Source: Cellulomonas sp. Y8
GTDB lineage: Bacteria; Actinomycetota; Actinomycetes; Actinomycetales; Cellulomonadaceae
Length of the DNA stretch: 64,000 nucleotides
Direction of reading: 5' to 3'
NCBI RefSeq assembly: GCF_008033115.1
Contig: NZ_CP041203.1
Coordinates: 124,001-188,000 of the forward strand
Each line of letters begins with the position of its first letter. The stretch's first letter is position 1. Shown here piece after piece: positions 1,502 through 12,269 of the stretch. The position numbers were made by a program, and so were the translations under genes. Under the pieces are notes generated by a model. The model was not told the origin of the DNA, searched no databases, and saw nothing but the letters and a program-made list of their open reading frames with translations.

Positions 1502-2187
1502 CAGGGCAGCTCCCCCATGAGTCGGAGCGAGAACGCGGACGTGGTCACCTGGACGGTGCCGGTGACGTCGTAGGCGGAGGCGTCGTTGCGCTTCACGACG
1601 GACACCCGCGGGTCGTCGAAGCCGCGGACGCCGTCGAACGCGTCGAGCAGCGCGGCGATGTCGACGGGCGTCGCCGACGTGCCGGTGAAGGTCAGCTGCA
1701 CGACGCCGGGCGTCACGAGCGGGTCGGGCACGCCGGTGGTCGCCGGATCCGCCGCGGTGACCAGGGTCTGCAGCGACATGTCGGGCGGCAGCACCGCGGA
1801 GACGGCGCCGAGGTAGTCCGACCAGAGGATCTCCCCGGACGAGGCGATCACGGTCGCCTTGCCCATCCGCGTGATGTCGTCGAGCACCGGGGTCACCTCG
1901 GCGTACGTCTTCTTCTCCGTCAGGAGCGAGTCGGTGCGCGCCTGCTCGGCGGTCAGGTCGTCCTGGGCGCCGCCCACGATCAACGTGCCCACGAACCAGG
2001 CGACACCCACCAGCACGATCGCGAGGAGCACCGCCAGCCCGAACCACCCCCGGACCTCGCGCAGCCGCTGCACGGCGCGGACGCTGTCCGGCAGCAGGTT
2101 GACCTGCGGCAGACCCCGGCTGATCACGGTGGCCTCCCCCGGCTGCTTGCCGCCGCGCTGCTGCTGCCGCTCCGCCAGTGCCGTCAT
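1501..2187 (-). CDS. pilN: PilN-like type IV pilus assembly protein
   Basis: A 228-residue bitopic membrane protein. A cytoplasmic N terminus carries the PilN hallmark PQVNLLPD (residues 27-34), which in characterised systems docks onto PilM. A single membrane helix follows at about residues 48-70, then a coiled-coil and ferredoxin-like periplasmic-type domain. It overlaps pilM upstream and pilO downstream by four bases each (ATGA), so the three are almost certainly translated together. The order pilM-pilN-pilO matches the standard alignment subcomplex; no PilP or PilQ is seen, as expected for a cell without an outer membrane. Confidence 0.88.
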   Translation of the reverse strand: MTALAERQQQRGGKQPGEATVISRGLPQVNLLPDSVRAVQRLREVRGWFGLAVLLAIVLVGVAWFVGTLIVGGAQDDLTAEQARTDSLLTEKKTYAEVTPVLDDITRMGKATVIASSGEILWSDYLGAVSAVLPPDMSLQTLVTAADPATTGVPDPLVTPGVVQLTFTGTSATPVDIAALLDAFDGVRGFDDPRVSVVKRNDASAYDVTGTVQVTTSAFSLRLMGELP

Positions 2188-3242
2188 GCCGCCACCCCGT
2201 AGGCCAGGCCGGTCGACAGCGCGACCAGCGATCCCATGCCGTCGAGCGAGCCCGCGGCGACCGACTTGCCGACGCGGACGCCCGACAGCGCGTCCCCGAG
2301 GACCGCGGGGAGCCGGCTCGCGCTCGACAGGTACTGCCCGAGCCCGTCCAGGTGGGCACCGCCGCCGGTGAGGACGACGACCTCGATGCCCTGCCCCGGG
2401 TGCGTGCCGGCGTAGTAGACGAAGGTGTTGCGGATCGCCTCGACCAGCGCGCGCGTCACGTCACCCACCGCGCTCTGCACCGCCGGGTCCGCCCCGGGGT
2501 AGCCCAGTCCGGTCGCCCGCTTGGTCTGCTCCGCCTCGGGCTGAGCCACGCCCAGCGCCGACGCGACCGCATCCGTGATGTTCTGGCCGCCCATCGGCAG
2601 GACGCGCACCAGGCGGGGGGTCGTGCCCTGCGCGACGACCACGGTGGTGATCCGTGCGCCGATCTCGACGTAGGCCGCGATGCGACCCGCGAGCTCGCCG
2701 CGGGCCAGGGCCCGGACCAGGGCGAAGGCGTTGTGGTCCACCATCGTCGGACGGAGCCCGGCGGCCTCCACGGCCAGCAGGTTCGCCGTCACCGTGTCCC
2801 GGGGGGCGGCGATGAGCTGCCCGCGGACGACCCGGCCCTGCGGGCCCTCGACCTCCTCCGTCGGGAGGAAGTCCAGGAGCGTGTCGTCCACCGACACCGG
2901 CAGGATCTCCTGGACCTGGTACGGCAGCGAGGCCCGCAGCTGTGCGAGAGGCATCCAGGGCAGCTCCATCTCGCGCACGACCACGCGCTGGTTGCCGACC
3001 CCGATGACGACGTCCTTGCTGCTGAACTTGGACTGGTGCCAGAGCCGCTTCAGCGCGTCGGCCACGACCGTCTGGTCCGTCACCTCGCCGTCGCGCACCG
3101 TGCCGACCGGCAGGGCGACCTGGCCGTAGCGCAGGAGCGTGGGCGGGTTCTTCCCACCAGGCCCTCCGCTCCCGAACTCGAGCTCGGCGGCGCGGACGGC
3201 AGTGCTGCCGATGTCCAGGCCGATCACGCGTGCAGAACCCAC
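2184..3242 (-). CDS. pilM: PilM, actin-like type IV pilus assembly ATPase
   Basis: A 352-residue actin-fold cytoplasmic protein that binds the PilN tail and couples the motor ATPases to the pilus platform. The N-terminal IGLDIGSTAVRAAEL is the phosphate-1 loop of the actin superfamily, and VVLTGGGAHLDGLGQYL near residue 290 is the adenosine loop. The chosen GTG start at 3242 has AAGGA six bases upstream. It opens the pilMNO unit, and a motility-type promoter motif at 3279-3307 lies just before it, so these three genes can be transcribed apart from the prepilin peptidase gene that precedes them. Confidence 0.92.
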   Translation of the reverse strand: MGSARVIGLDIGSTAVRAAELEFGSGGPGGKNPPTLLRYGQVALPVGTVRDGEVTDQTVVADALKRLWHQSKFSSKDVVIGVGNQRVVVREMELPWMPLAQLRASLPYQVQEILPVSVDDTLLDFLPTEEVEGPQGRVVRGQLIAAPRDTVTANLLAVEAAGLRPTMVDHNAFALVRALARGELAGRIAAYVEIGARITTVVVAQGTTPRLVRVLPMGGQNITDAVASALGVAQPEAEQTKRATGLGYPGADPAVQSAVGDVTRALVEAIRNTFVYYAGTHPGQGIEVVVLTGGGAHLDGLGQYLSSASRLPAVLGDALSGVRVGKSVAAGSLDGMGSLVALSTGLAYGVAA

Positions 3243-3278: not shown

Positions 3279-3307
3279 TCATCGGCCGCGACCTGCGCGG
3301 TCTTGAG
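3279..3307 (-). promoter_or_regulatory. FliA/WhiG-type promoter motif before pilM
   Basis: Minus strand reads CTCAAG (3307-3302), 15 bases, then GCCGATGA (3286-3279). The same arrangement precedes pilT, pilB and the pilin gene. The -10 half matches the GCCGAT core of the FliA/WhiG sigma family. A start site a few bases later leaves a leader of about 30 bases before pilM. Assignment rests on recurrence and position, not on experiment. Confidence 0.65.
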
Positions 3308-3350
3308 ACGTCCCACCTGACTGGCGCGCGAGGTCACCCGCACGCCCCGT

Positions 3351-4139
3351 TCACAGGCCCAGGAGGCCCAGGTACCACTGCCCGACCGCGGGGCCGGCGA
3401 CGAGCCCGACCCACGCGCCCGCGATGAGGAAGGGGCCGAACGGGATCGCGGACTTGCGCCCCGCCCGTCGGCGCGCCAGCAGCACGACGGCGAACAGGCC
3501 GCCGAGCAGGAAGCCGGCGAACCAGCCGACGAGGACCGCCGACCAGCCGATCCACCCCAGGTAGAGACCGAGCACGCCGGCGAGCTTCACGTCACCGAGG
3601 CCCATGCCGGCCGGGTAGACCAGGAAGATCACCAGGTACGCGCCGCCGACCGCGAGGCCTCCCAGCACGGCCCGGAGGAACACCTCACCCCCGGCGTCCG
3701 ACCCGGGCCCCCAGCACGCCAGCGCGAGGAGCGCGAGCGCGACCGGGTAGGACGGGAGCACGATCGCGTCCGGCAGCCGGCGGACGTCGAGGTCGATGAG
3801 CGCCAGCGCGACGCTCACCGCCGCCAGGTACCAGAACGCCGGCAGCGACCAGCCGAACCCCTGCCAGACCAGCACTTCGACGAACGCGACGGCGGTCACG
3901 GCCTCGACCGCGGGGTACCGCGCGGAGATCGGCTCGCCGCAGTCCCGGCACCGGGCCCGCAGCAGCAGCCAGGACAGGACCGGCACGTTGTCCCGGGCGC
4001 GGACGGCGTGTCCGCACCGGGGGCACGCGCTCGGCGGGTGCACCACCGACTCGCCCCGAGGGACGCGCCAGACGACGACGTTGAGGAACGACCCCAGCAC
4101 CAGGCCGAGGAGGCCGACCGGCGCCGCGAGCAGGATCAC
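3351..4139 (-). CDS. pilD: Prepilin peptidase (A24 family leader peptidase)
   Basis: Polytopic membrane aspartic protease that cleaves the leader of type IV prepilins after Gly and N-methylates the new N terminus. Its 262 residues include the cytoplasmic zinc-type motif CPRC (39-42) and CRDC (64-67), then several membrane helices. The two catalytic aspartate motifs are visible: DLDVRRLPD in the middle, and GLGDVK in the second half. Its substrates, three prepilin-like proteins, are encoded just upstream. The GTG start at 4139 lies 19 bases after the large anchored protein's stop. Family assignment is secure. Confidence 0.94.
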   Translation of the reverse strand: MILLAAPVGLLGLVLGSFLNVVVWRVPRGESVVHPPSACPRCGHAVRARDNVPVLSWLLLRARCRDCGEPISARYPAVEAVTAVAFVEVLVWQGFGWSLPAFWYLAAVSVALALIDLDVRRLPDAIVLPSYPVALALLALACWGPGSDAGGEVFLRAVLGGLAVGGAYLVIFLVYPAGMGLGDVKLAGVLGLYLGWIGWSAVLVGWFAGFLLGGLFAVVLLARRRAGRKSAIPFGPFLIAGAWVGLVAGPAVGQWYLGLLGL

Positions 4140-4158
4140 GGTCGTCCCTGCCCGGTGG

Positions 4159-5811
4159 TCACGAGTCCCCCGGGTCGAGGTTGTAGCGCGCGGTCTGATC
4201 GAACGCGTACAGCGCGCTGGACGGGCCCTCCATGCCGGGCGGCGTCATGTCCGAGTGCACGATCGTGGTCGCGACCGAGGCCTGCAGCTGACAGGTGTAC
4301 ACCGAGCCGTGCAGGTTGACCGTGTTGGTGAAGCTGGTCTTCCCGTTCGTGTACAGCAGGACGTCGACGTTGGGGTCGAACGTGACCGAGTTCTTCAGGT
4401 CGAGCGTGCCCTTCGCGGACGAGGGCAGCGTGGCCGAGCAGGTCGTGGCGCCCGCCGGGACCGGGACGATGATCCGGAGCTTGGCACCGTTCTTCGTCGA
4501 GGAGACGCGGAACGAGTTGTTCACGGAGAAGCTCTTCACCACGATGGTGAGGTCGTCCTTGAGGTTCAGGACGATGTTCTGGAAGTTGACGTCGCAGGTC
4601 CGCGCGTCGATGACGGTCGGGACTGCGGGCGAGGTCATGGGGCCGTTGATCCCGTAGTTGGCGGCGTCCGCGCTGCACGTGCCCGCGGCGCGCCCCGACG
4701 CCCAGGACGGCGCGTTGTTCGCGGCCGCGCTCTCGTTGATCCAGGTGCTGACGTTCTTGACCGGCCAGCCGGCCTTCTGGACGTCCTCCCACGTGATCGC
4801 GGGCATGACCTCGGCCGGCGGGGCGTCCGGCGCCGCGCTCGGGCTGTTGGCCGTGTAGCCGCCCTGGAACACGGTGCTCATCGTCGCGGCTCCGGTGATC
4901 GCACCGCCCGCGCGCCCGTAGCCCGTGACGATCGGTCCGGTGTTGCTCGCGGAGATGCCGCCTGCCGCGGAGATCATGTTGCCGCCCACCCGCGGCGTCG
5001 CCGTGGTGAGCTGGATCGGGCCCTTGGTGCGGAACGTCCCGCCGATCTTGCACCCGTTGGTCAGGCTGGACGTCCCGGCGCCGGCCGCGGTCACGTCGCC
5101 CGTGACGGAGCCGGCCGAGCTGCACGTGTACGTCCCACCGGCGGCGACGCTGTTGGCGATGCAGCCGTTCGTGATCGACACGTTGCCCGTTGCGCTCACC
5201 GGCCCGATGATCGCGCCGGAGCTGTTGCAGCCGTAGTCGCCGTTCGCGTGCAGGCCGCCGCCCTGGATGTTGAACGTGTTCGTCGCGGTGAACGACGAGC
5301 CGGAGAAGATGCCGTAGCCGAACAGCGAGCCGCCCGACGGCACGTCGGTGACCGCCAGGCGCTGCTTCACGGTGCGCGTCGCCGTGCGCTCGCCGTCCGC
5401 GGTGTTGATCGAGACGTCCGAGGTCGCCGTGACCTCGGCCTCCACGACCGGCATCGAGGTCGGGATCGGGCAGTTGAAGGCCGTGCCGCCCTCGGTGCGG
5501 TAGCGCAGCGTGACCTCGGTGCTCGACGACCCCGCCGGGGTCACCTCGCTGTACGGCAGCGAGCAGGGGAAGGTCGTCTCCGCGCCCTTGGTGTAGAGCG
5601 ACATCTGCGACAGCGTCCGGTCGACGGCGTCCTCCGCCGACGCCTGCGCCTGCACCTGCGCGCGGGCCCGCGCGCTGGTGCCGGTCGCGAACGACACCGT
5701 CGCGACCATGGTGACGCTGACGATGGCGACGACCGCCGCGATGGCGATCACGGTCACCAGGGCGCTGCCGCCGTCGCGCGGGACGGACCGGAGACGTCGG
5801 ATCAGAAGCAT
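4159..5811 (-). CDS. Large membrane-anchored pilus-locus protein with bactofilin-like repeats
   Basis: A 550-residue protein of uncertain function. Residues about 14-42 form one hydrophobic helix after a short basic N terminus, as in PilX-like pilus accessory proteins, but no clear prepilin cleavage site with Glu at +5 is seen. The remainder is Gly, Ser, Thr, Ala and Asn rich with scattered paired cysteines and short near-repeats such as SVTGDVTAAGAG and ISITNGC-like turns, which suggest a beta-solenoid like polymer-forming domains. The ATG at 5811 overlaps the end of the minor prepilin gene by ten bases, and the prepilin peptidase follows. Probably an extracellular part of the pilus or its tip, or a cell-wall anchor; this is inferred from position and composition only. 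Confidence 0.7.
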   Translation of the reverse strand: MLLIRRLRSVPRDGGSALVTVIAIAAVVAIVSVTMVATVSFATGTSARARAQVQAQASAEDAVDRTLSQMSLYTKGAETTFPCSLPYSEVTPAGSSSTEVTLRYRTEGGTAFNCPIPTSMPVVEAEVTATSDVSINTADGERTATRTVKQRLAVTDVPSGGSLFGYGIFSGSSFTATNTFNIQGGGLHANGDYGCNSSGAIIGPVSATGNVSITNGCIANSVAAGGTYTCSSAGSVTGDVTAAGAGTSSLTNGCKIGGTFRTKGPIQLTTATPRVGGNMISAAGGISASNTGPIVTGYGRAGGAITGAATMSTVFQGGYTANSPSAAPDAPPAEVMPAITWEDVQKAGWPVKNVSTWINESAAANNAPSWASGRAAGTCSADAANYGINGPMTSPAVPTVIDARTCDVNFQNIVLNLKDDLTIVVKSFSVNNSFRVSSTKNGAKLRIIVPVPAGATTCSATLPSSAKGTLDLKNSVTFDPNVDVLLYTNGKTSFTNTVNLHGSVYTCQLQASVATTIVHSDMTPPGMEGPSSALYAFDQTARYNLDPGDS

Positions 5812-6446
5812 GTGGTCCCGCCTGTGCTCGTGCCCTGCGGCCGCGGGATGGCGGCCGACGTGATGGTGAGGCTCGACCCGTCCTGGCCGTCGGTGACCTC
5901 GAACCGGATGTGCGCACCGGTGGTGCCCTCGGCCGTGAAGACCGGCAGCCCCGCTCCCCCGCTCGTCGAGGCGTGCACGCCGTCGAGCGCGACCGACCAC
6001 GCGCTGAGGTCGGACGTCGCCGTGAGGCCCGCGGTCGGCGCGCCGGCGCCGGGCGCACCTCGCGTCGTGCGGAGCTCGCCCGAGGCGGTGTCCAGGTACC
6101 AGCCGCGGCACACGAACGACGCGGGGTCGGCGTCGTCGTCGCCGACGCGCGTCTTGACCAGCAGCAGGCGGCCGCCGAAGTCGGACGGCGTGCGCACCGT
6201 CACCGCGTTCCGCAGCGCACCCTGCATGTCGGTGAGCACGATCTGCGAGGCGCTCGAGGCGGTCGCCTGCGCGCGGACGTCGCGCTGCGTGACGAGGGTC
6301 CGGACGATCAGCGTGCCCACGATCGCGAGCACGATGCCCGACAGGACCATGTACGCCAGCAGCTCGGCCAGCGACATGCCCGCGTCGGGGGTGGCGCGCG
6401 CGGCGCGGAGGGCGCGGAGGTCGACGGCGCGGCGGAGTCGGTGCAC
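5802..6446 (-). CDS. Minor prepilin, PulJ/PilW-like
   Basis: A 214-residue prepilin. After a 24-residue basic leader, the class III signal reads G-MSLAELLAYMVLSGIVL: cleavage after Gly, Glu at +5, then a helix of about 20 hydrophobic residues that packs in the pilus core. The C-terminal half is a globular domain with a cysteine near each end. The GTG start at 6446 has GAAGGA about ten bases upstream. It lies five bases after the preceding prepilin gene. Minor pilins of this kind prime pilus assembly or decorate the tip. Exact subtype (PilW, PulJ or other) is uncertain. Confidence 0.85.
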   Translation of the reverse strand: MHRLRRAVDLRALRAARATPDAGMSLAELLAYMVLSGIVLAIVGTLIVRTLVTQRDVRAQATASSASQIVLTDMQGALRNAVTVRTPSDFGGRLLLVKTRVGDDDADPASFVCRGWYLDTASGELRTTRGAPGAGAPTAGLTATSDLSAWSVALDGVHASTSGGAGLPVFTAEGTTGAHIRFEVTDGQDGSSLTITSAAIPRPQGTSTGGTTCF

Positions 6447-6451
6447 GGCGC

Positions 6452-6910
6452 TCAGTCCTTCCCGACCCAGATGCGCGACGTGACCGTCGCGGTGACCGGA
6501 CGCGCGCTCGCGTTGGTGTTCGCCCGGACCGTCACGGTGTACGGGACGAGGCCGTCCACGTCCGGGCAGGTGATCGACGACGCCGCCGTCTCGGTCACCT
6601 CGAAGTCGATGCCGCGCGAGTCGTGCACCGCCCCCTCCGCCGTCGCGGCGGAGCTGGCGAGGTGCGCCTTCAGCTGCGTGCAGGAGGTGGCGGCGGACCG
6701 GGCGCGCTCGAGCTGCTGGTTCGCGATCTGGCTCGCGGTCGCCAGCTGGGCGGCGCGGGCGGCCTGCACGGTCGAGGCGAACAGCAGGGGCAGCGCGGCG
6801 GCCATCACGATCCCGAAGATCGCCATCGCGACGAGGATCTCGATGATGCCGACGCCGGCGTCGGCGGGGCGCCGGTGCGCGCCGTCGGCCTCGGTGTGCT
6901 GCTGCGCCAC
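6452..6910 (-). CDS. Minor prepilin, PilV/PulI-like
   Basis: A 152-residue prepilin. The leader ends in Gly before VGIIEILVAMAIFG, giving a clear prepilin peptidase site with Glu at +5 and a long hydrophobic helix. Two later cysteines (in ATSCTQLK and SITCPDVDG) may form the disulphide loop common in pilins. The GTG start at 6910 is preceded by GAGGAGG at good distance. It heads the run of minor prepilin, anchored protein and peptidase genes, and is separated from the major pilin gene by a strong hairpin. Confidence 0.86.
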   Translation of the reverse strand: MAQQHTEADGAHRRPADAGVGIIEILVAMAIFGIVMAAALPLLFASTVQAARAAQLATASQIANQQLERARSAATSCTQLKAHLASSAATAEGAVHDSRGIDFEVTETAASSITCPDVDGLVPYTVTVRANTNASARPVTATVTSRIWVGKD

Positions 6911-6977
6911 GTGCTGCCCTCCTCGCGGGTGCTGGGGTCCGGCCGGCCCGGTGGCTGCCGGGTGGTGTCGCGCCGAT

Positions 6978-7010
6978 GGGGCGGGGCCGCGTGCTCGCGT
7001 GCCCCGCCCC
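6978..7010 (-). terminator. Hairpin after the major pilin gene
   Basis: GGGGCGGGGC (6978-6987) pairs perfectly with 7001-7010, and an inner CGCG/CGCG stem closes a TGCT loop, with one bulged T. It begins 28 bases after the pilin stop on the minus strand. Pilin mRNA is usually much more abundant than that of the minor genes, so partial termination here is a natural reading. No T-run follows. Confidence 0.6.
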
Positions 7011-7037
7011 GTCGGGTGGTGCGGTGTGGCCCGAAGG

Positions 7038-7472
7038 TCACGGGTTGGTGGTGCCGCCCGTGGTGGTCTTCTCGGTGATGCCGCCGGTCTCGTCGACGAT
7101 GAAGACCTTGCCCGTCGAGGAGGTCGCCTCGATCTCGAACTCGCCGGCCGCGATGGTGACGGACGAGTCGCCGGTGACGCCGGCGGACCAGGCGAACTTC
7201 GCCGTGGCGGAGGTGGTGCCGGGGGTGTCGGTGTTGCCGAAGGTGATGGTGGTGGCGTTCGGCGAGTCGACCAGCGCCGACGCGACCGCGATCTTCGCGT
7301 TGCCCAGGTCCGACTTCGCGGCCGAGTCCTTGGCCTTCGCCTGCTGGTTCAGGTACACCGGCACCGCGATGGCGGCGAGGATGCCGATGATGATGATGAT
7401 GACCACGAGGAGCTCGACGAGCGTGAAGCCCTGCTCCTTGTTCTCCATGGCCTTGCGGTAACGAGCGATCAC
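7038..7472 (-). CDS. Major type IV pilin (prepilin)
   Basis: A 144-residue prepilin and the probable main pilus subunit. The leader VIARYRKAMENKEQG is followed by FTLVELLVVIIIIIGILAA, a textbook cleavage site (Gly, Phe at +1, Glu at +5) and core helix. The mature part is short (about 129 residues), lacks cysteines and ends in Thr/Gly-rich TTTGGTTNP. The GTG at 7472 is chosen over the longer frame start at 7550 because GGGAG lies six bases upstream; an internal ATG at 7448 would leave a seven-residue leader. It lies between pilC and the minor prepilins, with its own motility-type promoter motif and a hairpin on each side, indicating separate high-level expression. Confidence 0.93.
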   Translation of the reverse strand: MIARYRKAMENKEQGFTLVELLVVIIIIIGILAAIAVPVYLNQQAKAKDSAAKSDLGNAKIAVASALVDSPNATTITFGNTDTPGTTSATAKFAWSAGVTGDSSVTIAAGEFEIEATSSTGKVFIVDETGGITEKTTTGGTTNP

Positions 7473-7546
7473 GCTGTGCTCCCGAGTTCGATGTGAAATG
7501 TCCAGATCCACCGGCCCGCGAAGGCCGGGGAAGTCGTGCACCCATT

Positions 7547-7575
7547 GCATCGTCCGGGACCCACCCCGACTTGAG
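7547..7575 (-). promoter_or_regulatory. FliA/WhiG-type promoter motif before the major pilin
   Basis: Minus strand reads CTCAAG (7575-7570), 15 bases, then GACGATGC (7554-7547), one base off the GCCGAT core seen at the other three sites. The leader to the GTG at 7472 would be about 65-70 bases. Spacing is identical in all four copies. Confidence 0.6.
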
Positions 7576-7581
7576 TCGTCA

Positions 7582-7609
7582 GAACGGGTGACGTTTGGTT
7601 CACCCGTTC
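7582..7609. promoter_or_regulatory. 10-bp inverted repeat between pilC and pilin
   Basis: GAACGGGTGA (7582-7591) and its exact complement (7600-7609) flank an 8-base loop. It lies after the pilC stop (7626) and immediately 5' of the -35 element of the pilin promoter motif. It may end pilC transcripts or bind a regulator of the pilin promoter; the sequence does not decide between these. Confidence 0.5.
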
Positions 7610-7625
7610 GGACGCCCCGCCGCGG

Positions 7626-8852
7626 TCACTCGATCAAGTTGAAGACATTGAAGATCGGCAGGTAGAGCGCGACGATCATGCCGCCGACGACCACGCCGAG
7701 GAACGCGATCATGAGGGGCTCGATGAGGCTCGTGAGCTGCTCGGTGGTCGACTCGACCTCCTGGTCGTAGAACTCCGCGACCTTCTCGAGCATCGTCTCC
7801 ATCGCGCCCGAGTCCTCGCCCACGGCGAGCATCTGCACGACCATCGGCGGGAAGACCGGGTGCTGCCCGAGCGGGCCGGACAGCGTCTCACCTCGGCGGA
7901 CGGCTTCCTGGACGTCGGCGACGGCGCGTTCGATCGCCCAGTTGCCGGAGGTCTGCCCGACGATCTCGAGGGCCTGCAGCAGCGGCACGCCGGCGCCCAT
8001 CATGGTCCCGAAGTTCCGGGCGAACCGGGCGACCGCGATCTTCCGCATCAGCTGCCCGAAGACGGGCATCTTGAGCTTGATCGGATCGACCTTCTCGCGG
8101 ATGGCGGGGTCGTTCTTGTGCTTCCGCCACCACCCGATCGCGACCACGATCACGGCGACCAGCGGGACCGTCGCCCACTTCATGACATTCGAGATATACA
8201 CCAGGATCAATGTCGGGACGGGCAGCGTCCCGCCGAGGTCGGCGTACATGTCCCGGAATACCGGGACGATGAAGATGAGCATCGCGGCGACCGCGACGAT
8301 CGCCATGATGAACACCATGACGGGATAGGTCATCGCCGACTTGATCTTGGACCGGAGCTTGACCTCGGCCTCGTAGTTCTCGGCCACCGACACGAGCGAC
8401 TTCTCCAGGAAGCCGCCGACCTCGCCCGCGCGGATGATGTTGATCATCAGCGGCGGGAAGGCGTCCTTGTGCTTGGACAGCGCGGAGGACAGCGACTGCC
8501 CGACCTCGACGTCGCTCCGCACCGAGCCGAGGACCTTCGCGAGCGGCTTGCTCTCGGTCTGGTCGGCGAGGATCGACAGCGTCCGGATCAGGGACAGGCC
8601 GGCCGAGATCATCGTCGCCATCTGGCGCGACATGACGGCGAGGTCCTTGAGCGTGATCTTCTCGCCGAAGCCGGGGATGGTGATCTCGCGCTGCAGGCCG
8701 GTGGTCTGCACCTCGGTGATCGAGGTGGGCGCGAGCCCCATGGTGCGCAGCCGGTTCGCGACCGCGGCCTGGTTGGCCGCCTCGATCCGGCCCTTGACGA
8801 CCTTGCCCTCGCGGTCGCGGACCGCGTACTCGTAGACCTTGGCGTCCGCCAT
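7626..8852 (-). CDS. pilC: PilC/GspF-family pilus platform protein
   Basis: Inner-membrane platform protein that transmits the motion of PilB and PilT to the growing or shrinking pilus. Its 408 residues contain two repeated T2SSF domains, each with a cytoplasmic four-helix bundle followed by membrane helices. Recognisable pieces are MSRQMATMISAGLSL near residue 70, FARNFGTMMGAGVPLLQAL near 275, and the C-terminal LIEPLMIAFLGVVVGGMIVALYLP helix. The start MADAKVYEYAVRD at 8852 overlaps the pilT stop by four bases, so it is coupled to pilT. Length and motif order are standard. Confidence 0.95.
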   Translation of the reverse strand: MADAKVYEYAVRDREGKVVKGRIEAANQAAVANRLRTMGLAPTSITEVQTTGLQREITIPGFGEKITLKDLAVMSRQMATMISAGLSLIRTLSILADQTESKPLAKVLGSVRSDVEVGQSLSSALSKHKDAFPPLMINIIRAGEVGGFLEKSLVSVAENYEAEVKLRSKIKSAMTYPVMVFIMAIVAVAAMLIFIVPVFRDMYADLGGTLPVPTLILVYISNVMKWATVPLVAVIVVAIGWWRKHKNDPAIREKVDPIKLKMPVFGQLMRKIAVARFARNFGTMMGAGVPLLQALEIVGQTSGNWAIERAVADVQEAVRRGETLSGPLGQHPVFPPMVVQMLAVGEDSGAMETMLEKVAEFYDQEVESTTEQLTSLIEPLMIAFLGVVVGGMIVALYLPIFNVFNLIE

Positions 8853-10405
8853 CAGTGGGTGCTCCCGGGCTGCGCGTAGGGGGCCGGCGGCGCGACCGGC
8901 GGGTAGGACGACGACTCGTACAGCGCGTTCTGCGCCGGCGCGCCGCCCTGCGCCATCGGGGCGGCAGCGCCGAAGCGCCCGGTGAGGCGGTTGAAGTCCT
9001 CGGCGTGGTGGCACTTCTCGAGGCCGGTCTCGTACGAGATGCGCCCGGCCTTGACCAGGTCCGCGAGGTGCTGGTCCATCGTGTGCATGCCCTGCTGCGA
9101 GCCCGCCTGCATCGCCGAGTAGATCTGGTGCGTCTTGCCCTCGCGGATGAGGTTCCGGACGGCCGGGGTCGCGACCAGCACCTCGGTCGCCACGGTCCGG
9201 CCGGTGCCGTCGGCGCGCTTGCACAGCGCCTGGCAGACCACGCCCTGGATCGCGCCGGCGAGCTGGGTGCGGACCTGGGCCTGCTGGTGCGACGGGAAGA
9301 CGTCGATGATGCGGTCGATCGTCTGGGCGGCGTCCTGCGTGTGCAGGGTGGCGAAGACGAGGTGGCCGGTCTCGGCCGCGGTCAGCGCGACGGAGATCGT
9401 CTCGAGGTCGCGCATCTCGCCGACGAGGATGATGTCGGGGTCCTGACGCAGCACGTGCTTGAGCGCGTTCGCGAACGAGTGGGTGTCCTCCCCCACCTCG
9501 CGCTGGTTGATGAGCGCCTTCTTGTGCCGGTGCAGGAACTCGATCGGGTCCTCGACCGTCATGATGTGGTCGGGCCGGGTGCGGTTGGCCAGGTCGATGA
9601 TCGACGCGAGCGTCGTCGACTTGCCCGAACCGGTCGGCCCGGTGACCAGCACCAGCCCGCGCGGCAGGCCTGCGAAGTTCGCCACGACCGGCGGCACGCC
9701 GAGCTGCTCGAGCGGCTTGATCTCGTAGGGGATCACGCGGAACGCCGCACCGATCGACTCACGCTGCTGGTACAGGTTCAGGCGGAACCGCGCGAGCCCT
9801 CGCACCGAGTAGGAGAGGTCCAGCTCGAGGTTGGCCTCGAACTTCTCCCGCTGCTTCTGGGTGAGGACCGCGTAGAGCGCGCGGCGCAGCCCCTCGCCCT
9901 CGAGCGCGGGGAAGCCTTCGAGCGGGCGGAGCGAGCCGGAGATGCGGACCGTCGGCGGAGCGCCGATGGTCAGGTGCAGGTCCGAGGCGCCGATCTGGAC
10001 CATCGCGGCGAGCGCCTCGTCGAGGTCGAGGTCGCCCTCTTGCCGCTGCAGTCCCATGCCGGGGCGCGCCGTGCCGGCACGCATCGCCGCTCGGGTGCCG
10101 GCGGGGGCGGCTGCGCGCGCGGGGCCGCCGGGCTGCCCGGGGATCGCCGGCGGAGCGGCGGGCGGCGCTGCCGGGGCGGGGGGCGCAGCAGCTGCGGGGG
10201 GCGCGGCGTAGGTCGCCGCACCTGCCCCGTGCGCCGTGGCCGGGTAGCCCGGCACGGGGGGCGCCGGCGGGGACAGGACGGGGGCCCCGGCCGGCGGCGC
10301 GGCCTGCGTCGGCACGGACGCACCGACCGGCGGCGTGAGCGGCGGGACGTACGGCGGGAGGCCCGTCACGGGCACCGTTCCATCGCCGGGGTAGGGCTCG
10401 GTCAC
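8852..10405 (-). CDS. pilT: PilT retraction ATPase with long Pro/Ala-rich N terminus
   Basis: Hexameric ATPase that powers pilus retraction and twitching. The 517-residue product has a core from about residue 135, starting DLDLDEALAAMVQIGASDLHLTIGAPP as PilT does. It contains the Walker A box GPTGSGKST, the Asp box, the Walker B region DIILVGEMRDLET and the His box TGHLVFATLHT. The GTG at 10405 follows GGAGAGG at good spacing. Ahead of the core lie about 130 residues rich in Pro and Ala that typical PilT lacks; they are probably disordered. A motility-type promoter motif lies at 10460-10488. Confidence 0.94.
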   Translation of the reverse strand: MTEPYPGDGTVPVTGLPPYVPPLTPPVGASVPTQAAPPAGAPVLSPPAPPVPGYPATAHGAGAATYAAPPAAAAPPAPAAPPAAPPAIPGQPGGPARAAAPAGTRAAMRAGTARPGMGLQRQEGDLDLDEALAAMVQIGASDLHLTIGAPPTVRISGSLRPLEGFPALEGEGLRRALYAVLTQKQREKFEANLELDLSYSVRGLARFRLNLYQQRESIGAAFRVIPYEIKPLEQLGVPPVVANFAGLPRGLVLVTGPTGSGKSTTLASIIDLANRTRPDHIMTVEDPIEFLHRHKKALINQREVGEDTHSFANALKHVLRQDPDIILVGEMRDLETISVALTAAETGHLVFATLHTQDAAQTIDRIIDVFPSHQQAQVRTQLAGAIQGVVCQALCKRADGTGRTVATEVLVATPAVRNLIREGKTHQIYSAMQAGSQQGMHTMDQHLADLVKAGRISYETGLEKCHHAEDFNRLTGRFGAAAPMAQGGAPAQNALYESSSYPPVAPPAPYAQPGSTH

Positions 10406-10459
10406 CGTGGCACCTCTCCGATCGTGTCGCGGCGCACGTCGGCGCCGCCCTGCCCGGTC

Positions 10460-10488
10460 CCATCGGCCGGGGCGAGCGGTTTCTTGAG
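10460..10488 (-). promoter_or_regulatory. FliA/WhiG-type promoter motif before pilT
   Basis: Minus strand reads CTCAAG (10488-10483), 15 bases, then GCCGATGG (10467-10460), in the 106-base gap between pilB and pilT. A transcript would start about 50 bases before the pilT GTG. This is the best match to the motility sigma consensus in the window. Confidence 0.68.
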
Positions 10489-10511
10489 CGGTCGCCCCGC
10501 GGACCACCCGG

Positions 10512-12191
10512 TCACGCGACGACCCGCAGGATCTCCTCCACCGACGTCTGCCCCAGCGCGACCTTCTGCCAGCCGTCGTCGCGGAGCGTGATCATGCCCT
10601 GCTGCCGCGCGGTGGCGCCGATCTCGGCGGCCGACGCCCGCGCCACGGCCAGACGCTCGATGTCCTCGGTCACCCGCATGACCTCGTGCAGCGCGACGCG
10701 CCCCCGGTACCCGGTGCGGGAGCACGCCACGCAGCCGACGGGCCGGAACAGCTCGGGCAGCGGCTCCCCCGGCACCCACGGGAACCGCGCCCCGATGAGC
10801 TCGGTCTCGGTCGGGACGTACGGCTCGCAGCACTTGGCGCACAGCCGCCGGGCGAGCCGCTGGGCCACCACCGCGTCGAGCGCGGAGCCGACGAGGAACG
10901 GCTCGATGCCCATCTCGGTGAGGCGGGTGATCGCGGACGGCGCGTCGTTGGTGTGCAGGGTCGAGAGCACGAGGTGGCCGGTGAGGGCCGCCTCGATGGC
11001 GATCTGCGCGGTCTCGTGGTCGCGGATCTCACCGAGCAGGACGACGTCGGGGTCGGACCGCAGGATGGAGCGCAGCGCGCCCGCGAACGTCAGGCCGGCC
11101 TTGGGGTTCACCTGGACCTGGTTGATGCCGGCGAGGCGGTACTCGACCGGGTCCTCGACGGTGATGACGTTGATCTCGGGCTTGGAGACCGCGTTCAGCG
11201 TCGCGTACAGGGTGGTCGACTTGCCGGAACCCGTCGGTCCGGTGACGAGGATCATCCCGTACGGCTTGGTGTACGCGTCCTTGTACGACTCGTAGTTGTG
11301 CTCGAGGAACGCGAGGTCGCGGAGGTCGAGCGAGGCGGTCGAGTTGTCGAGGATCCGCATGACGATCTTCTCGCCCCACACCGTCGGCAGGGTGGCGACG
11401 CGGAGGTCGATCTTGCGGCCGTTGTGGGTGACGGACATGCGGCCGTCCTGGGGCTTGCGGCGCTCCGCGATGTCGATGTCCGACATGATCTTGACGCGCG
11501 AGATGACGCCGCCCTGGATCTGCTTGGGCGAACGCTGCATCTCGTGCAGCACGCCGTCGATCCGGTACCGCACGCGCAGGTCGTGCTCGGTGGGCTCGAT
11601 GTGGATGTCGGACGCCCGGTCGGAGATCGCCTGGGTCACCAGCAGGTTCACGTACCGGACGATCGGGGCGTCGTCCTCGACGGCGTTGCCGATGTTCGAC
11701 AGGTCGACCTGCGCCTGCTGGGACTGGTGCTCCTCCTCGAACGCGGTGGACAGGTCCTCCATCTCGCCGTCGGCGCGGCAGAACCGCTCGATCGCGCGGC
11801 TGAGGTTCTCGTAGGTCGCCACGATCGGCAGGACCGCCATGCCGGACACGGTGCGCACGTCGTCGACGGCGACCACGTTGCCGGGGTCGGCGGTGGCGAG
11901 CACGAGCGCGCCGTCCTGGAAGCCGACGGGGAGCACGGTGTACCGCCGGCACAGGGCGGCGGGCACCATCGAGACCGCGGACCGGTCCACCTGATACTCG
12001 TCGAGGTCGACGAACGCCATCCCGACCTGCCGCGCCAGCGCGGCCACGAGCTGCCCCTCGGTGAGGACCCCGATCTCGACCAGCGTGCGGCCGAGGGACT
12101 GCCCCCGGGCCATCTGCTCGTCCAGCGCGGCCATGAGCTGCGCCTCGCTGACCAGGCCCTCGTCCAGCAGGATCTCGCCGAGCTGCTTCAC
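10512..12191 (-). CDS. pilB: PilB/GspE-family pilus extension ATPase
   Basis: Hexameric ATPase that drives pilus assembly. The 559-residue product begins with an MshEN/GspE N-terminal domain (LGEILLDEGLVSEAQL repeated as LGRTLVEIGVLTEGQL). Such domains bind c-di-GMP in some homologues. The motor core holds Walker A GPTGSGKST, the Asp box, DPDVVLLGEIRDHET and the His-box region TGHLVLSTLHTNDAPS. The tetracysteine zinc motif is present as CAKC and CVAC pairs in the C-terminal third. The GTG start at 12191 has AAAGGG upstream. It is the first gene of the pilus cluster in reading direction and follows aroE. Confidence 0.95.
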   Translation of the reverse strand: MKQLGEILLDEGLVSEAQLMAALDEQMARGQSLGRTLVEIGVLTEGQLVAALARQVGMAFVDLDEYQVDRSAVSMVPAALCRRYTVLPVGFQDGALVLATADPGNVVAVDDVRTVSGMAVLPIVATYENLSRAIERFCRADGEMEDLSTAFEEEHQSQQAQVDLSNIGNAVEDDAPIVRYVNLLVTQAISDRASDIHIEPTEHDLRVRYRIDGVLHEMQRSPKQIQGGVISRVKIMSDIDIAERRKPQDGRMSVTHNGRKIDLRVATLPTVWGEKIVMRILDNSTASLDLRDLAFLEHNYESYKDAYTKPYGMILVTGPTGSGKSTTLYATLNAVSKPEINVITVEDPVEYRLAGINQVQVNPKAGLTFAGALRSILRSDPDVVLLGEIRDHETAQIAIEAALTGHLVLSTLHTNDAPSAITRLTEMGIEPFLVGSALDAVVAQRLARRLCAKCCEPYVPTETELIGARFPWVPGEPLPELFRPVGCVACSRTGYRGRVALHEVMRVTEDIERLAVARASAAEIGATARQQGMITLRDDGWQKVALGQTSVEEILRVVA

Positions 12192-12240
12192 CCCGTTGCC
12201 CTTTCGTCCGGGGCAGGCAGGTGCACCGGCCCCGTAGGAC

Positions 12241-12269
12241 CCATCGGCACGCCGGTGCGGGGAGATGAG
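12241..12269 (-). promoter_or_regulatory. FliA/WhiG-type promoter motif before pilB
   Basis: Minus strand reads CTCATC (12269-12264), 15 bases, then GCCGATGG (12248-12241), about 50 bases before the pilB start. The -35 shares the CTCA core with the other three copies. It would start the pilus cluster independently of aroE. Confidence 0.62.

Follow-up and report, generated by a model that had tools for sequence, protein, structure and literature searches.

Type IV pili are under RsiG-(c-di-GMP)-WhiG control (c-di-GMP, cyclic di-GMP) in Rubrobacter (Schumacher et al., 2021; PMC8325347). The same article mentions a WhiG-like control of pili and flagella in Actinoplanes, and a review records WhiG orthologues as intermittent in morphologically simple actinobacteria, mostly described as motile, and leaves the targets of these orthologues open (PMC4255298). 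We analyzed a stretch of 64,000 nt of Cellulomonas sp. Y8 (contig NZ_CP041203.1, positions 124,001–188,000; hereafter, the window), the minus strand of which contains, according to Pfam, a type IV pilus cluster extending from pilB to pilM and further. Four promoter-like elements lie within this cluster. They form a conserved set and, judging from their sequence and distribution, are most likely read by the sigma factor WhiG. As WhiG control of pili is already known in Rubrobacter, the promoter of the Cellulomonas type is most likely a variant of that control. Cellulomonas does not occur in the main text of PMC8325347, and the literature searched, mostly without subscription papers, contained no title on WhiG-type pilus promoters of this kind in Cellulomonas.

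The pattern CTCA-N17-G(C/A)CGATG occurs exactly four times in the window, on the minus strand before pilB, pilT, the major pilin gene (pilA) and pilM (Table 1). A preliminary description of this DNA had reported these four elements with this exact spacing, and all of them were found; its coordinates are right at the high ends and one base too long at each low end. It had also judged the set hard to explain by chance, in agreement with the 0.07 matches expected and with the fact that a count of four was reached in none of 100 shuffles of the window. No further exact match is present in the window, and aroE and alaS lack this pattern, as had been said. In three of the four elements the −35 is CTCAAG. 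The pattern CTCAAG-N15-G(C/A)CGAT has four matches in the 4.48-Mb genome (none in the control), three of them inside the pilus cluster; the other one, at C1:3000039, lies ahead of a 688-aa open reading frame (ORF). A search of the window with Rfam at gathering thresholds yielded only tRNAs.

With two blocks, a GCCGAT-like −10 and a fixed spacing, the elements have features of sigma-28 promoters. They do not match the canonical −35 TAAA and −10 GCCGATAA: the 4-mer of CTCA(AG) nearest to TAAA is TCAA, one base off, and the base 3′ of GCCGAT is mostly G, not AA. Nor do the window elements, with their spacing of 17, fit the flagellar promoter class of the Cellulomonadaceae (CTCA, spacing of 16, rarely AG). 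As in Rubrobacter, the host is a unicellular actinobacterium with a WhiG sigma, and a single type IV pilus cluster contains several promoters or promoter-like elements (PMC8325347). The search consensus used there is nevertheless TAAA and GCCGATAA, as opposed to CTCA(AG), GCCGAT and a spacing of 17 here; the R. radiotolerans promoters precede mapped starts, whereas the starts proposed here are predicted from sequence; and many of the genomes studied here contain a second, flagellar sigma and flagellin. The motif E(X)3S(X)2R(X)3Q(X)3D had no match among the ORFs of at least 50 aa with a third-position GC content (GC3) above 0.8 in the window and 14 loci, no genome-wide search having been made.

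To assess conservation, we took the 80 best loci surrounding pilB relatives, 1.53 Mb in total. In these loci, CTCA-Nk-GCCGAT peaks at k = 17, with 118 matches on the pilus strand against 2 on the opposite one; the counts are 12 against 2 at k = 16 and 29 against 1 at k = 13. The latter peak was rejected as a promoter, since it probably lies where the pilC coding sequence ends. For placement by gene, at most one mismatch to CTCA/GCCGAT was allowed at spacing 17, and both the second-pilus paralogues (L111, L113, L122, and L123) and loci with fewer than 200 bases upstream were omitted. The element is then found upstream of pilB in 55 of 75 loci, of pilT in 44 of 76, of pilA in 25 of 40 and of pilM in 42 of 54. 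Among the matches the spacer is variable at the printed positions, except that at pilB the −10 is preceded by T (96%). CTCA is mostly followed by C or G at pilB, and the −35 is CTCAAG at pilT, pilA and pilM. The −10 at pilA has A as its second base (GACGAT) in 32% of the matching loci, as it has in the window.

The preliminary description had likened the elements to FliA/WhiG-type promoters; besides the two blocks and the GCCGAT-like −10, this is borne out by two sigma genes of that type in the genome, matching TIGR02479 with 271 and 166–167 bits. Only the first exceeds the cut-off of 189.6. It is located at C1:504764-505501, about 370 kb from the pilus cluster, and passes the NCBIfam WhiG equivalog NF004935 (358.9; cut-off, 343), the same equivalog as Streptomyces WhiG. 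Its best solved relatives, 6pfj and 6pfv, are titled RNA polymerase sigma factor, and we take them to be Streptomyces WhiG; pyrH and frr, recognized by us from their translations, lie nearby, as they do near whiG in Streptomyces. The second, divergent sigma is in the ORF C1:2776321-2777196 of the flagellar cluster, between two flagellin-type matches.

We then compared 150 genomes of the family, calling WhiG above the TIGR02479 cut-off and leaving four divergent matches (G009, G015, G100, and G124) out of the PilB count. WhiG is present in 69 genomes and PilB in 67; they occur together in 66, WhiG alone in three and pilB alone in one, and the assemblies of these four exceptions (G001, G036, G130, and G062) consist of 240 to 660 contigs. 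A flagellar-type sigma was detected in at least 69 genomes among the matches listed (60 at 150–187 bits, 9 at 116–140 bits) and flagellin in 68, 67 having both, with two and one, respectively, having it alone. Fourteen genomes with WhiG have no flagellin match, and 13 with flagellin have no WhiG.

The pilus elements follow WhiG. CTCAAG-N15-GMCGAT has 249 matches in the 69 genomes with WhiG and 34 in the 81 without it (reversed control, 5 and 5), that is, means of 3.61 and 0.42 per genome; the mean is 3.29 in the 14 genomes with WhiG in which flagellin was not found. The pilus loci of 11 of these 14 (G001, G026, and G135 left out) were read on one strand: six contain the exact CTCA-N17-GCCGAT (G136, G131, G041, G144, G025, and G029) and five one-mismatch forms only (G148, G046, G004, G022, and G089). 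The pilus locus of the WhiG-less G015 has no match within one mismatch. Among the family genomes, uncorrected for relatedness, the elements co-occur with WhiG independently of flagellin. Because WhiG tracks pilB and the elements are kept where flagellin is not detected, the pilus elements are most likely read by WhiG.

The putative promoters of flagellar genes mostly have a different spacing, of 16. In 12 flagellar clusters, CTCA-Nk-GCCGA(T/A) gives 32 matches against 4 at k = 16 and 1 against 1 at k = 17. In front of flagellin, CTCA-N16 followed by TCCGAT, CCCGAT, GCCGAT or GTCGAA is present in 10 of 11 genomes with WhiG, G096 being the exception. Three WhiG-less genomes (G018, G003, and G028) have GAACTYCTCA-N16-GGCGAT at that place; being kept without WhiG, this form points to the flagellar sigma. 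In two more WhiG-less flagellates, G073 and G104, one of the flagellin copies is preceded by CTCA-N16-GCCGAC, and the other five of the ten have no CTCA-N16 form within one mismatch before flagellin. CTCAAG is found in 1 of 56 flagellar and in 74 of 124 pilus-locus matches. Counted from TCA, the flagellar class has a distance of 15 bases, which is that of the usual TAAA promoters, and the pilus class has one base more. The spacing of 16 would thus go best with the flagellar sigma. The pilus elements share the GCCGAT −10 block and the two-block promoter with the sigma-28/FliA regulons; they differ in that the flagellar cluster here contains a divergent sigma of its own (166 bits, below 189.6) and shows a spacing of 16.

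Sequence, conservation and co-occurrence being directly established, the explanation that we consider probable is the following. The four elements would be promoters with CTCA or CTCAAG as −35 and G(C/A)CGAT as −10, CTCA being separated from the −10 by 17 bases, and RNA polymerase containing WhiG would initiate transcription of the pilus cluster at four points, ahead of pilB, pilT, pilA and pilM. WhiG would transcribe, in addition, a small NarL/LuxR-type regulator gene (C1:4116913-4117395). A separate, divergent sigma would read flagellar and chemotaxis genes from 16-spaced promoters, and the gene of this flagellar sigma may itself be driven by WhiG in Cellulomonas-like genera. The data point to type IV pili, over flagella, as the steadier partner of WhiG in simple actinobacteria; they also yield a testable promoter and hint at a way in which one cell could keep two related sigma factors separate.

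The regulator was noticed in a set of 40 stretches, hand-picked from the genome scan, that surround CTCAAG sites in genomes of the same genus. Recurrent neighbors in these stretches are a LuxR/NarL-type regulator, a PilT-family ATPase (five genomes; the one scanned is TIGR01420) and a DUF3806-type protein, located behind CTCAAG-N15-GCCGAT in three Cellulomonas relatives (L238, L240, and L243; one scanned). The regulator, which in the Y8 genome is in locus L268, is present in 49 of the 150 family genomes, every one of them among the 69 with WhiG; a fiftieth match (G068) is restricted to the helix-turn-helix (HTH) part. A perfect CTCAAG-N15-GCCGAT precedes it in 20 of the 23 loci, out of 30, that passed the ORF filter, and the other three, the Y8 genome among them, have one mismatch. 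A structural model of the regulator (predicted TM-score, pTM, of 0.45) consists of three strands and two helices followed by a four-helix HTH, and the structures that it matches best are those of response regulators and of GerE-type HTH domains. In Streptomyces, whiI is a target of WhiG, and the regulator recalls it, with the difference that the part before the HTH is short in this model. The targets of WhiG in Streptomyces are those of sporulation, whereas pilus targets are predicted here. In L206-L208, L212 and L234 a conserved gene, RNase D-like by eye, follows the regulator.

As for the flagellar sigma gene, CTCAAG-N15-NNCGA(A/C/G) occurs ahead of it, 60–80 bases from the start of the sigma match, in 33 of 46 examined genomes with WhiG (29 with an exact CTCAAG, four with one mismatch in the −35) and in none of six WhiG-less genomes. 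G076 counts as a miss among the 46, the sigma copy on C15 having been read and not the C18 copy beside flagellin. As the −10 of this element never ends in T, and as it is absent before the flagellar sigma gene in those members of four genera (g13, g18, g20, and g25) that were examined, the possibility that WhiG feeds the flagellar cascade through this gene is suggestive only.

The association was also followed in 296 genomes of the class (WhiG by NF004935 at E ≤ 1e-60, PilB at E ≤ 1e-100). WhiG is present in 90, PilB in 71 and both in 55, which come from 24 families. The main exception is family f23, probably Streptomyces, with 30 WhiG-containing genomes and PilB in none of them; with these 30 left out, 55 genomes have both, 5 WhiG only, 16 PilB only and 190 neither. 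We read the pilus loci of 14 genomes (14 families) chosen from the other 54 with WhiG and PilB, and of 6 of the 16 with PilB only, allowing at most one mismatch to CTCA/GCCGAT and a spacing of 16 or 17. The element at the pilT position, just downstream of pilB, was found in 12 of the 14, always with spacing 17, and an element upstream of pilB in 6 of the 14; the opposite-strand control gave 0 downstream and 1 upstream. It is conceivable, and we propose it only tentatively, that WhiG control of pili through CTCAAG-N15-GCCGAT extends over the class and is possibly ancestral in actinomycetes, the spore control of Streptomyces being derived after pilus loss, and that in the Cellulomonadaceae two sigma-28 paralogues are separated by a one-base difference in spacing and joined one way by the WhiG element before the flagellar sigma gene.

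Several observations weigh against WhiG as the reader of the pilus promoters, or against its separation from the flagellar sigma. WhiG and pilB are nearly uniform by genus, so that the family counts, uncorrected for relatedness, overstate independence. In the class, 16 of the 71 genomes with PilB lack WhiG at the threshold used, and of the six read, two have a similar element downstream of pilB and one upstream. A single one-mismatch match also exists in the locus of the WhiG-less G009 and in the second cluster of G071. At one mismatch and spacing 17, the element is missing at pilB in 20 of 75 loci, at pilT in 32 of 76, at pilA in 15 of 40 and at pilM in 12 of 54, and 20 of the 69 family genomes with WhiG lack the regulator. 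Exact 16-spaced forms exist as well: G136 has one at the pilB position, G025 and G013 each have one at that of pilA, G030 has two, and four Demequina loci also contain such a form, so that WhiG may accept both spacings. In the Demequina pilus loci (L110, L117, L116, and L120) CTCA-N16-GCCGAT lies near the start or the end of pilB. Finally, CTCA-N16-GCCGA(T/A) is counted 44:4 in the flagellar clusters of 11 flagellates with WhiG (420 kb) and 2:1 in those of 10 WhiG-less ones (317 kb), and only 3 of these 10 have the 16-spaced GGCGAT form before flagellin.

Since WhiG-less flagellates are nearly devoid of the 16-spaced GCCGAT form, WhiG itself might read part of the flagellar set. One may go further and suppose that WhiG, where present, reads both classes, 16- and 17-spaced, the flagellar sigma being minor or different. 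This coincides with our explanation as far as the pilus promoters are concerned, and we consider it rather unlikely: the 44:4 count favors it, as does the genome-wide excess of CTCA-N16-GCCGATS over the reversed control (ratio largest in flagellates with WhiG, 4.2; 2.7, 2.1, and 1.7 in the remaining groups), but the GAACTYCTCA-N16-GGCGAT promoters of G018, G003 and G028 are maintained without WhiG.

The preliminary description had concluded that pili and flagella are switched on together. This would require that the flagellar-cluster sigma, or both sigmas interchangeably, read pilus and flagellar promoters, which appears improbable. CTCA and CGAT are common to both promoter classes, some pilus promoters have the spacing of 16 and a CTCAAG element stands ahead of the flagellar sigma gene in many genomes. 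The scarcity of the 16-spaced GCCGAT form in WhiG-less flagellates likewise speaks for the preliminary description. However, the pilus elements follow WhiG over flagellin and are kept in genomes with WhiG in which neither flagellin nor a flagellar-type sigma was detected, and the two classes differ in spacing and in the frequency of CTCAAG. A promoter form CTCA...GCCGA is reportedly found in Actinoplanes, a sporulating organism with motile spores. PMC8325347 places the pili as well as the flagella of that organism under WhiG-like flagellar sigma factors.

A pilus-specific activator that binds the repeats, in place of a sigma factor that reads them as promoters, is very unlikely. The repeats are indeed concentrated in the pilus cluster, and transcription starts are predicted here, not mapped; but two conserved blocks at a fixed distance with a free spacer, the resemblance of the GCCGAT block to the flagellar −10 consensus given in PMC8325347 and the co-occurrence with WhiG argue for a promoter. 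An artifact of chance or of GC-rich composition is hardly credible given the 0.07 matches expected for the full pattern and the 118:2 strand bias in related loci, even though the genome-wide scan for CTCA-N17-GCCGA that the preliminary description had suggested was dropped as largely background (101 matches against 45 in the reversed control), and though the 34 matches against 5 in WhiG-less genomes imply that the reversed control understates the background.

Table 1. Promoter-like elements and pilus genes of the window
Feature	Position	Strand	Basis
Element before pilB, CTCATC-N15-GCCGATG	12242-12269	-	Pattern match
Element before pilT, CTCAAG-N15-GCCGATG	10461-10488	-	Pattern match
Element before major pilin gene (pilA), CTCAAG-N15-GACGATG	7548-7575	-	Pattern match
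Element before pilM, CTCAAG-N15-GCCGATG	3280-3307	-	Pattern match
pilB, extension ATPase with MshEN domain	10512-12191	-	Pfam T2SSE and MshEN
pilT-like ATPase	8852-10405	-	Pfam T2SSE on frame 8852-10507; start at 10405 chosen by us
Major pilin-like protein (pilA)	7038-7472	-	N_methyl, 21.4 bits (cut-off 21.2); start chosen by us
Minor pilin-like protein	6452-6910	-	N_methyl
Prepilin peptidase (pilD)	3351-4139	-	A24_N_bact and Peptidase_A24
pilM	2184-3242	-	PilM_2

Upstream of the pilus cluster, a shikimate dehydrogenase is supported by Pfam. The PilB of the window shares 98% identity with its counterpart in C. hominis CS1 and 96% with the one in C. pakistanensis. A second PilB, 70% identical, is encoded in the same genome (G000:C1:3803539-3805203; locus L199), and the 15 kb downstream of it contain no promoter element within one mismatch. 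The MshEN domain binds c-di-GMP in MshE, and its presence on the PilB of the window may provide a second c-di-GMP input.

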